From Deltaproteobacteria bacterium (GTDB lineage Bacteria; Desulfobacterota; GWC2-55-46), in NCBI GenBank assembly GCA_016182655.1, contig JACPGB010000001.1, positions 62,001 through 126,000 of the forward strand: a stretch of DNA of 64,000 bases, given 5' to 3'. Below are positions 49,517 to 56,275 of this stretch, piece after piece. The number at the start of each line of letters is the position of its first letter. Position 1 is the stretch's first letter. The notes beneath the pieces were generated by a model. It saw only the letters and a list, made by a program, of their open reading frames with translations, was not told the origin of the DNA and made no database searches. The position numbers and the translations under genes were made by a program.

Positions 49517-49666
49517 TCAGCAGACCGGGTGCTCGCCCCTTGAGAGCTCCAGCGTCAGCGCGCCTATGCCGGAGAGCAGCTCGTCCAGTATCCGCGCGGC
49601 GTGCAAGTTTACGGTCTTCTTATCCAGCCCCCTGCCCGGCACTATCCGCACATAGACCTGCGCTTG
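49517..49666 (-). pseudogene. metK: C-terminal part of archaeal-type AdoMet synthetase, shifted frame
   Basis: This frame continues the enzyme past a premature stop: QAQVYVRIVPGRGLDKKTVN, then a helix (ARILDELLSGIGALTLELS), ending EHPVC at TGA 49517-49519. It joins DEP of the main frame if one base is restored in the run at 49664-49668. The coding quality is as good as upstream, so the frameshift is recent or a sequence error. Confidence 0.75.
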
Positions 49667-50730
49667 GGCTCGTCTATCGGAGAGCCTATCTGGCTGAGCA
49701 ACCAGACATAGACCTCTTTCACGCCCTTGAGCCTCTCGTATAGCTCGTTCGCCATCTGGTGCGCAAGGACCGTATATATCTTCCCCACGTGGGATACCGG
49801 GTTTTTCCCAGCCGCGGCCTCGGTGCCCATGGGCCTGTTGAGCGATATTACGCCGTTTACGCGGTTGCCCCTGCCCACCTGCCCGGAGTCCGCGTCCTCG
49901 GCGGATGTGCCGAGGAGCGTCAGATACACGCCGCCCGTTCCCTTTCCCTTGATATCAAGGGTGTTCAGGTTGACATTGACGGATGAGAAGGGAGACCCCG
50001 AAAGAAATTCCTTTATCGCCGCGTGTACAGCCGACTTCCTCCTGAAGTAATCCAATTCGCTCTTTACAAGCCGCGCACGCAAAGGGCAGGCGATTGTGAG
50101 GTCTAACGCCGTACCCCTCCGTATGCCCATTACCTTCACATCCTCTCCGGACTCGGGGAACCTCTGCTTGAACGCCGGAGAGTTTATGAACCGCTCGGTC
50201 TCGTAGACGGCACGTTCGGTCGGCGTAAAAGGGGCGTAGCCGACCGAGGCCGATGTGTCGTTCGCGCCCTTGAGCCTGCCTTTCCTCGAGAATATGTCCT
50301 TGAGCTCCTCTGATCCCGGCTGTAAGACTACCCTTACCCTGAGGTCTTTTTTTACGTCAACACCGGGGAGAGATTCCCTGAACCACGCATGGACCGCCTC
50401 CCTGGCGATGGCCGCCACAGGCACCTTGACCTTGCCGACGGAAAAGGTCGCGCGGTCGCCTATTATGAACTCCATCGGCTTTATGACTCTCCCGCCGCCG
50501 AAGCGTTTCTCGGCCTCACCGGCTACCAGCAACCCCTTGTCTATATTGTGATGGAGGACCTCTCCAAAGAGCCTCGTGTACTCGCGGCTTAAGGCGACGG
50601 AGATCCTGTCCATCACCGCGTCGCAGATATAGTCGGGATGTCCCACGCCCTTTCGCTCGACTATCTCGACGGATTCATCCGCGACCGGCGGGCACTTTAC
50701 GGTCTCTATCAGTATGTTACGGGCCTTCAT
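49642..50730 (-). CDS. metK: S-adenosylmethionine synthetase, archaeal type (frameshifted near the end)
   Basis: AdoMet synthetase of the archaeal MAT family (PF01941-like), not the usual bacterial MetK. It has VEIVERKGVGHPDYICDAVM, HHNIDKGLLVAGEAEKRFGG, GDRATFSV, NDTSASVGYAPFTPTERAVY and NRVNGVISLNRPMGTEAAAG. The frame reaches VWLLSQIGSPIDEPK and then stops after RRSMCG. The remaining ~48 residues lie in another frame (49517-49666), which suggests a one-base deletion. About 362 residues are in this frame, ~410 if repaired. A TTG five codons upstream is an alternative start. It probably supplies SAM for the cell, so functional loss would matter. Confidence 0.85.
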   Translation of the reverse strand: MKARNILIETVKCPPVADESVEIVERKGVGHPDYICDAVMDRISVALSREYTRLFGEVLHHNIDKGLLVAGEAEKRFGGGRVIKPMEFIIGDRATFSVGKVKVPVAAIAREAVHAWFRESLPGVDVKKDLRVRVVLQPGSEELKDIFSRKGRLKGANDTSASVGYAPFTPTERAVYETERFINSPAFKQRFPESGEDVKVMGIRRGTALDLTIACPLRARLVKSELDYFRRKSAVHAAIKEFLSGSPFSSVNVNLNTLDIKGKGTGGVYLTLLGTSAEDADSGQVGRGNRVNGVISLNRPMGTEAAAGKNPVSHVGKIYTVLAHQMANELYERLKGVKEVYVWLLSQIGSPIDEPKRRSMCG

Positions 50731-50766
50731 CCTGAGTGCCAACAAACACCCCGCATTAGCGCTTCT

Positions 50767-54740: not shown

Positions 54741-54769
54741 TTTACTCATACCCTTACAGGTGATAAAAT
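54741..54769 (+). promoter_or_regulatory. possible sigma-70 promoter of msrB
   Basis: TTTACT (54741-54746), a 17-bp spacer and TAAAAT (54764-54769) preceded by TGA (extended -10). The leader would be short, with GGAGG (54777-54781) close to the transcript 5' end. Confidence 0.45.
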
Positions 54770-54792
54770 TATTGAAGGAGGAAGAAGACGAT

Positions 54793-55188
54793 ATGGAAAA
54801 GGTCAAAAAGACGGATGACGAATGGCGTAGCCTCTTAAGCCCCGAGGCGTACAAGGTGACGAGGAAAAAAGGCACGGAAAAGGCCTTCTCAGGCGAGTAC
54901 AACTACAACAAGGAACCCGGCGTATACAGGTGCGTCTGTTGCGGCAACAGGCTCTTTAGCTCAAAAGACAAGTTCGATTCAGGTACCGGTTGGCCGAGTT
55001 TTGTAAGGCCTCTCGAAGACGATAGCGTGACGACCGAGGATGACAGGTCGTTCTTCATGAGAAGGACCGAGGTCCTCTGCAAAAAGTGTGACGCGCACCT
55101 GGGCCATGTATTCGACGACGGCCCGCCGCCGACGGGCAAGAGGTACTGCATGAACTCGGTGGCATTGAAGTTTGAGAGGGCAAAGTGA
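54793..55188 (+). CDS. msrB: peptide methionine-R-sulfoxide reductase MsrB
   Basis: A 131-residue repair enzyme that reduces methionine-R-sulfoxide. It has zinc Cys pairs in [11 protein letters not shown] and [15 protein letters not shown], the [10 protein letters not shown] motif and the catalytic Cys in [13 protein letters not shown]. The ATG was chosen 11 codons inside the longest frame, behind GGAGGAAGAAG. No msrA is nearby. It stands alone before the riboswitch unit. Confidence 0.94.
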
Positions 55189-55242: not shown

Positions 55243-55270
55243 TTGACAACCGGCTCAAGGTTGTTATAGA
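55243..55270 (+). promoter_or_regulatory. sigma-70-like promoter of the cobalamin riboswitch unit
   Basis: Perfect TTGACA (55243-55248), a 16-bp spacer and TATAGA (55265-55270). Transcription would start near 55277, just before the riboswitch. Confidence 0.75.
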
Positions 55271-55282
55271 CTCGCCTTAAAT

Positions 55283-55440
55283 TACGGGCGGCCCGAGAGG
55301 GCCTCAAAAGGGAAGAACGGTGTAAAACCGTCGCGGACCCGCCGCTGTAACCGGGGACGAAAGCCGCAAAAACGCCACTGTCTGAAACGACGGGAAGGCG
55401 CGGCGAGTAGGATGAACCGGGAGCCAGAAGACCTGCCCTG
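55283..55440 (+). ncRNA. cobalamin (adenosylcobalamin-type) riboswitch
   Basis: Conserved pieces appear in order: GGGAAgaACGGTG, CCGCCGCTGTAACCGG, GGACGAAAGCCGC, a CCACTG segment (55376-55381), GGGAAGGCG, GAGTAGGATGAACCGGGAGC and the B12 box GCCAGAAGACCTGCC (55423-55437). It is followed by a hairpin and then a true terminator (55507-55543), so control is probably by transcription termination when cobalamin is high. It precedes cbtB, a cobalt transport gene, as expected. Confidence 0.95.
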
Positions 55441-55506
55441 ATGTTTATAAATCTGTCTGCCTTCGTGGTGGAAGGGCAGGCTTATTTTCGAGGATGAAAA
55501 ACGGCA

Positions 55507-55543
55507 TCCCCGGACCATACCAATTGGTCCGGGGATTTTTTTT
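55507..55543 (+). terminator. expression-platform terminator of the cobalamin riboswitch
   Basis: An 11-bp perfect stem TCCCCGGACCA / TGGTCCGGGGA (55507-55517, 55525-55535) with a 7-base loop is followed by eight T (55536-55543). It lies between the aptamer and the cbtB ribosome site, a classical OFF-switch platform. Confidence 0.93.
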
Positions 55544-55580
55544 GGACAGAAAAAACAACAAAAAAAGGAGGAGATTAAAC

Positions 55581-55754
55581 ATGGAAAAGATTTTTGAGAA
55601 GGAGGTTCTTTTAAAGGCCCTATTCCCTGCGCTCGTTGTCGTTGCGATGGCTTTTACGATGGTCGTAATAGCCTATGGGGTGGAATCCGTCGCTCCAGGT
55701 GTCCATGACGCTTTCCACGATTTCAGGCACGTCATAGGGATGCCGTGCCATTAG
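55581..55754 (+). CDS. cbtB: CbtB-type cobalt transporter small subunit
   Basis: A 57-residue protein: one membrane helix (about 11-32) and the signature His-rich tail HDAFHDFRHVIGMPCH, nearly the CbtB consensus ending in FPCH-like. CbtB acts with CbtA in predicted cobalt uptake for cobalamin synthesis. ATG 55581 has GGAGGAG 7 bp upstream; a longer frame beginning at 55494 runs through the riboswitch terminator and is rejected. It is the first gene under the cobalamin riboswitch. Confidence 0.92.
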   Translation: MEKIFEKEVLLKALFPALVVVAMAFTMVVIAYGVESVAPGVHDAFHDFRHVIGMPCH

Positions 55755-55786
55755 TTATTAACGAATAGCAAAAAAGGGGTAAACTC

Positions 55787-56203
55787 ATGAATACATCGAT
55801 GAAAAGATTTGTCGTAGCAGGCATGCTCGGAGGCATCGTCTGGGGATGGGTAGCGATGGCTTTAAATTCGGCAACCGGGGCGTTTGAATTCGAAGGGAGT
55901 TTTGTCCACGACCTTATAACTTTCGCTGTCGGCGGTGCCGTCTTTGGCACCATCGTCGCTGGATTCTTATGTCTCGTGGGCGACATAATCCCTTTCAGAA
56001 ACCGACTTCTAAGGGCCGTTCTCGTATCAACCTCTTTATGGCTCCTTTTGAAGACAGGCGGCACGCTGTTGTCGCATATGGATCATGAAAGATACCACCT
56101 TGTGACGTCCCAGACTATACAGGGGCTTTTCCTTGCCGTGATTCTTGGCTGCATAATATGGCTTTTCTGGAAGAAAGAAGCTAAGTTAAGGATAGAAGCA
56201 TAA
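55787..56203 (+). CDS. four-helix membrane protein, candidate CbtB partner
   Basis: A 138-residue inner-membrane protein with four predicted helices (about 6-26, 45-67, 76-97 and 113-133). A conserved-looking loop between helices 3 and 4, SHMDHERYHLVTS, offers three His and acidic residues for metal binding. It is 32 bp behind cbtB and shares the riboswitch, so a cobalt transport role is likely by context. It is shorter than CbtA (about 200-240 residues, five helices), and the CbtA sequence signature is not recognised. It could be a divergent or truncated CbtA or a new partner. Confidence 0.8.
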   Translation: MNTSMKRFVVAGMLGGIVWGWVAMALNSATGAFEFEGSFVHDLITFAVGGAVFGTIVAGFLCLVGDIIPFRNRLLRAVLVSTSLWLLLKTGGTLLSHMDHERYHLVTSQTIQGLFLAVILGCIIWLFWKKEAKLRIEA

Positions 56204-56243: not shown

Positions 56244-56275
56244 AAGGGGTTACGAGATCTCTCGTAACCCCTTTT
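56244..56275 (+). terminator. intrinsic terminator of the cbtB unit
   Basis: AAGGGGTTACGAGA (56244-56257) and TCTCGTAACCCCTT (56260-56273) form a 14-bp perfect stem with a tiny loop, ending in TTTT (56272-56275). It is 41 bp after the membrane protein stop and before the convergent regulator gene. Confidence 0.85.

Follow-up and report, generated by a model that had tools for sequence, protein, structure and literature searches.

A cobalamin riboswitch-controlled unit of cbtB and a four-helix membrane protein gene in the position of cbtA: a candidate cobalt uptake system

Introduction

CbtB has long been classed with CbtA, the two being seen as subunits of one predicted transporter. In systems described so far, cbtBA was repressed 43-fold by coenzyme B12 (PMC8123684), and knockdown of cbtB in Methylococcus capsulatus led to better growth, which the authors explained by relief of cobalt toxicity (PMC13108547); taken together, these observations suggest that CbtB systems probably import cobalt. 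Other cobalt transporters, CbtC-CbtG and CbtX, were predicted via B12 riboswitches or gene neighbourhood (PMC2667541, PMC545781), like the unit described here. In the literature we found no paper linking CbtC-CbtG or CbtX to CbtB, and none in which CbtB is described with any partner but CbtA.

CbtA is a protein of approximately 220–270 aa, modelled with six helices (pLDDT 94.0). We found that in other groups it follows cbtB in 79 of 80 CbtB loci. On plasmids, cbtBA adjoins genes for nitrile hydratase, which is a cobalt enzyme, or CobN; the position next to nitrile hydratase genes on three of them (L070, L071 and L077) is consistent with cobalt supply to this enzyme. Here we analyse a stretch of 64,000 nucleotides from a Desulfobacterota bacterium (the window), in which the slot behind cbtB is held by a gene for a different membrane protein, referred to below as X.

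Results

The riboswitch leader and cbtB

The two-gene unit sits between a SelR/msrB gene (54760-55188) and an opposite-strand gene encoding a sigma-54 response regulator (56336 onward), and comprises the following features:

55243-55272, plus strand: promoter-like site TTGACA-18-TAGACT (consensus scan, 10/12 matches)
55269-55454, plus strand: cobalamin riboswitch aptamer (RF00174, full-length model 1-189)
55457-55479, plus strand: post-aptamer hairpin with the loop GTGGTG (by eye; present in the predicted fold too)
55506-55544, plus strand: intrinsic terminator, the expression platform, with a T run behind its 12-bp stem (terminator scan, predicted fold)
55566-55574, plus strand: ribosome binding site AAGGAGGAG of cbtB (sequence)
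55581-55754, plus strand: cbtB, encoding 57 aa with a single membrane helix and a His/Asp/Cys tail at the C-terminus (PF09489)
55787-56203, plus strand: gene X, 138 aa, four-helix membrane protein (35-sequence alignment, AlphaFold2 model, genome surveys)
56244-56273, no strand: inverted repeat AAGGGGTTACGAGA-TC-TCTCGTAACCCCTT (by eye)

The promoter, aptamer, B12 box and terminator that an earlier note had read in this leader are all legible. The aptamer scores 114.5 bits against RF00174 (gathering score 31.5; E 6e-28) and carries the B12 box AGCCAGAAGACCTGCC close to its 3' end. The promoter-like site is weak on its own, as the consensus scan gave 1 match with 1.0 expected by chance, yet it is well placed, standing directly 5' of the aptamer. 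Judging from the sequence, pairing of the GTGGTG loop with CGCCAC (55373-55378) is possible and would correspond to the L5-L13 kissing loop typical of such riboswitches. The predicted leader fold is better than that of all shuffled sequences (z -4.8). If the leader follows the behaviour of its class, ample cobalamin would occupy the aptamer and halt transcription, while low cobalamin would permit read-through past the terminator and expression of cbtB and X. Cobalamin riboswitches were detected in many cbtB-X loci of relatives, in some directly before a porin gene or before cbtB itself, and one locus (L017:911-1106 and 1242-1423) holds tandem cobalamin riboswitches ahead of a single porin-cbtB-X unit.

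The product of cbtB matches PF09489 (55581-55751) with 40.5 bits, over the cutoff of 27, and scores 31.4 against the NCBI equivalog TIGR02459, under its cutoff of 64.4. Its start was chosen from relatives 70–80% identical. The tail, HDAFHDFRHVIGMPCH, fits the conserved H...HD.RH..G..CH pattern when aligned with 11 CbtA-associated CbtB proteins, and is the textbook CbtB tail that had been claimed. Gene X follows after 32 nt, and the inverted repeat behind it is a probable terminator common to X and the opposite gene. The window genome possesses a second cbtB-X copy, located within a cobalamin operon (L013, X at G000:C31:67678-68070). Elsewhere in the window (49642-50745, minus strand), we noted by eye a gene whose product resembles an archaeal-type S-adenosylmethionine synthetase in this bacterial genome.

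Sequence, fold and topology of X

No Pfam, NCBIfam or PHROGs family matches X above cutoff. The AlphaFold2 model contains four helices (mean pLDDT 92.4), in agreement with the earlier reading that a 138-residue, four-helix protein replaces the expected CbtA. In an alignment of 35 relatives, all of the window's order, W19, G20, E36, F46, G50, W85, L95, R102, G113, L116 and G121 are invariant, and N27, P69, Y103 and Q112 nearly so. Conservation in the loops falls on E36 (loop 1) and R102-Y103-H104 (loop 3); H104, the one well-conserved histidine, is kept in 31 of the 35 homologues, and few conserved polar residues lie inside the helices. Positive charge is found at the N-terminus, loop 2 and the C-terminus, while loop 1 is acidic; by the positive-inside rule, this pattern predicts that both termini are cytoplasmic and that the loops with E36 and R102-Y103-H104 face the periplasm.

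The H-x2-H-x3-H loop was not supported as a metal site. Its string, SHMDHERYH, is present in the window copy and peculiar to it, with H97 and H100 each found in 2 of 35 homologues, and we rejected it as a metal site. A Tim17/Tim22/NDUFA11-like four-helix fold was considered for X: structure searches gave best Z values of 6.5 (8e1m_B, TIM23 complex) and 5.3 (7cgp_A, TIM22 complex), and a best Foldseek E of 0.49 (complex I chain Y). None of these scores exceeds what common bundles reach, and nothing in the PDB went past this level for the X model or the CbtA model. DUF6069 (PF19545) was matched weakly by 10 of the 35 X members (best E 0.0025, below the gathering score). These matches are one-way, the X profile finding none better than E 2.8 in 13 DUF6069 loci, and the family was dismissed as a relative of X.

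Relationship between X and CbtA

A whole-length CbtA match was looked for on X, as proposed earlier, and none was obtained: PF09490 and TIGR02458 do not match X up to E 10. Nor was a CbtA above cutoff detected in 59 relatives or in 247 genomes of the phylum. X could still be a shortened, strongly diverged CbtA, and the pair CbtAB in disguise, an explanation that concerns descent and is compatible with cobalt uptake. The two proteins share the slot behind cbtB, and each has a first helix rich in glycine, after which stands an invariant glutamate (E36 for X, E39 for CbtA); by eye, RYH..TPET of X also resembles KYP..P(D/E)TI of one CbtA subfamily. Profile comparison by hhalign yields probabilities of 1.5–8%, although the two CbtA subfamilies recognise one another at 99.7%. 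Against 200 decoys with shuffled columns, in which column composition and hydropathy were kept, the real local score for the KYP subfamily is at noise (70 decoys reach or beat it), whereas that for the other subfamily is weakly above it (2 decoys). Together with the lack of a Pfam or NCBIfam match and a helix count of four versus six, this leads us to regard descent from CbtA as unlikely.

The CbtB tails also differ by partner. Their metal-ligand residues are common to both types, as are the His, Arg and Cys positions, but the F of HD-F-RH occurs in 47 of 48 X-type tails and in 0 of 80 CbtA-type ones, this being the only unbiased tail position, since the retrieval pattern for the CbtA-type set fixed GFPCH and the GFPCH end is therefore not evidence. 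A CbtB search of the genome contigs returned CbtA-type loci only.

Pairing of X with CbtB and distribution of X

X is paired with CbtB well past chance. Among 63 genomes of the window's GTDB class, both are encoded by the same 47 and neither by the remaining 16 (Fisher p 3e-15, a statistic that ignores phylogeny), while the presence of X is not significantly associated with that of CbiM (p 0.18). In 49 of 49 fetched loci with both genes, cbtB immediately precedes X in the same orientation, at a distance of 4–247 nt; in the sole exception, a fiftieth X locus, the contig breaks off. These observations bear out the description of X as a membrane protein of no known family that partners CbtB in cobalt or cobalamin loci under B12 riboswitch control. 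The genomes devoid of both genes are scattered inside genera and include the highly complete G010 and G035, so that X and cbtB tend to come and go as a pair, though part of the absences will be assembly gaps.

Outside the class, no X was found among the 237 remaining genomes from the phylum sample or on 72,556 plasmids, and 398 genomes of Methylobacter's phylum gave one weak match (48 residues, E 8e-4); as the outside-class genome search covered these 237 and 398 genomes, a wider spread is possible. A CbtB-like tail, HAAAHDVRHAAGFTCH, seen outside the class (G175, L193:3992-4162, minus strand) lies in another frame over the end of cobB and is devoid of a membrane helix; it is probably not a gene and was set aside.

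Free-standing riboswitch-cbtB-X units are represented by the window copy, L014, L018 and L033, and L017 has the order riboswitch-porin-cbtB-X. In the X tree these copies cluster beyond shuffled labels; support is weak, and the tree fits one or several origins.

Operon context and proposed function

The neighbour survey revealed no association with non-cobalt loci. Cobalamin genes lie beside X in 45 of 50 loci, with CbiD downstream. The operon type comprises a CbiX-CbiC gene, CbiMQO or HupE, followed by a porin gene, cbtB, X, cbiD, cbiET, cbiL and cbiF, as typified by L020 (cbiM-cbiQ-cbiO-porin (OprB)-cbtB-X-cbiD-cbiET-cbiL-cbiF), and in many loci CbiMQO and a porin are located upstream. The cbi operon of L020 runs on with a VanZ-family gene and one of creatininase/MftE-like type (L020:9243-10351). 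Across the window's class, the cobalt chelatase CbiX and the precorrin-8X methylmutase CbiC are encoded by a single fused open frame (L044:3683-4759, L047:5902-6957, L196:5644-6696, L197:6156-7244, L042:2476-3468, L030:7970-8938, L022:747-1772 and L198:6966-8105).

An outer-membrane beta-barrel gene of the OprB, Phenol_MetA_deg or Porin_O_P type often stands immediately 5' of cbtB (L020:3314-4591, L195:5324-6616, L194:1671-2450, L017:1470-2552), and in L017, L194 and L195 it directly follows the B12 riboswitch. We consider its product a candidate cobalt porin.

We propose, with a probability of about 0.6, that B12 represses the unit and that its two proteins form a cobalt uptake system, the new membrane protein X standing in CbtA's place. 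By analogy with CbtAB, CbtB most likely captures Co(II) and X carries it through the inner membrane. In the route that we infer for metal binding, transport, its direction and the oligomer state of X, built on a predicted fold and topology, CbtB would be a one-helix anchor with the N-terminus inside, whose periplasmic His/Asp/Cys tail catches Co(II), perhaps supplied by the outer-membrane porin whose gene often directly precedes cbtB in relatives. X, whose termini both lie in the cytoplasm in this model, would take the ion at its periplasmic face through E36 (loop 1) and R102-Y103-H104 (loop 3) and let it through the inner membrane; as a chain of 138 aa is short for a channel, X is probably an oligomer. 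In the cytoplasm, Co(II) would pass to the CbiX chelatase of the same operons for insertion into the corrin ring.

B12 riboswitches regulate corrinoid transporters as well, and CbtB-X might on this ground handle corrinoids, or some other substrate, and not free Co(II). Yet the neighbours of cbtB-X are CbiX (the chelatase), CbiMQO and genes for early steps of the corrin ring, and CbtB systems elsewhere adjoin cobalt enzymes such as nitrile hydratase, which makes a corrinoid substrate highly improbable.

The relation to the other cobalt importers weighs more heavily. CbiM is encoded by 38 of the 47 X-bearing genomes and lies within 31 of the 50 X loci, and HupE fills the importer slot in G048, G055 and G012. 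With CbiM so widespread and HupE in the operon of three X-bearing genomes that do not possess it, a second importer looks redundant, which argues against import by cbtB-X, as does the scarcity of conserved polar residues and histidines in X. The pair could instead be an accessory, perhaps coupled to the porin, that captures cobalt and hands it over to the importer present, be it CbiMQO or HupE. This would agree with the constancy of cbtB-X while the adjoining importer varies, with the frequent porin gene directly ahead of cbtB, and with the small size of X and its few polar membrane residues. An accessory would be less expected in free-standing units like the window copy, or given that ten class genomes encode CbiM without X. 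Moreover, in G027, G031, G036 and G052, cbtB-X directly follows the CbiX-CbiC chelatase fusion, CbiM occurs nowhere in the genome, and neither HupE nor another known cobalt transporter was recognised alongside, NiCoT, CorA and CbtX lying outside this search. In total, nine X-bearing genomes do not encode CbiM, seven of them at least 92% complete, with the same three transporter types outside the search. The accessory role is the leading alternative to uptake by the pair itself, but seems to us rather unlikely.

Returning to uptake by CbtB and X themselves, we put forward tentatively, at somewhat below even odds, its furthest-reaching form: that X founds a new, non-CbtA cobalt permease family, that CbtB-X is a minimal importer of fewer than 200 residues, and that with the porin it provides a dedicated two-membrane cobalt route alongside or instead of CbiMQO and HupE.

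Comparison with known systems

Among the genomes searched, one whole bacterial class keeps CbtB without CbtA and pairs it without exception with a protein absent from Pfam and NCBIfam, so that CbtB appears as the constant part of the system. In this two-gene, 195-residue system, the putative role of CbtB (ion capture) would be separable from that of its partner (passage). The analysis supplies a prediction for approximately 50 unannotated gene copies and pinpoints genomes in which cbtB-X could serve as the principal route of cobalt entry for B12 synthesis.

Of the described systems, CbtAB (PF09490, PF09489) is the closest: it shares with cbtB-X the H...HD.RH..G..CH tail of CbtB, a polytopic membrane protein gene directly after cbtB, control by a B12 riboswitch and the cobalamin-synthesis context. 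In contrast to CbtA, X has 138 aa and four helices and bears no significant sequence relation to it; in turn, the CbtB of the X type carries the tail HDFRHxxGMPCH, and the system with X was found in one class only among the genomes searched. The cobalt ECF transporter CbiMNQO provides cobalt uptake genes in the same operons as cbtB-X, but the family searches linked neither X nor CbtB to any of its subunits, and the distribution of the pair across genomes does not follow that of CbiM. The nickel/cobalt permeases HupE/UreJ (PF04955) likewise place a small cobalt permease in the importer slot by cbtB-X in some lineages, yet X has no HupE match in the family search. As for the predicted transporters, CbtX corresponds to COG3366, and CbtC-CbtG are set beside X by description, not by sequence.
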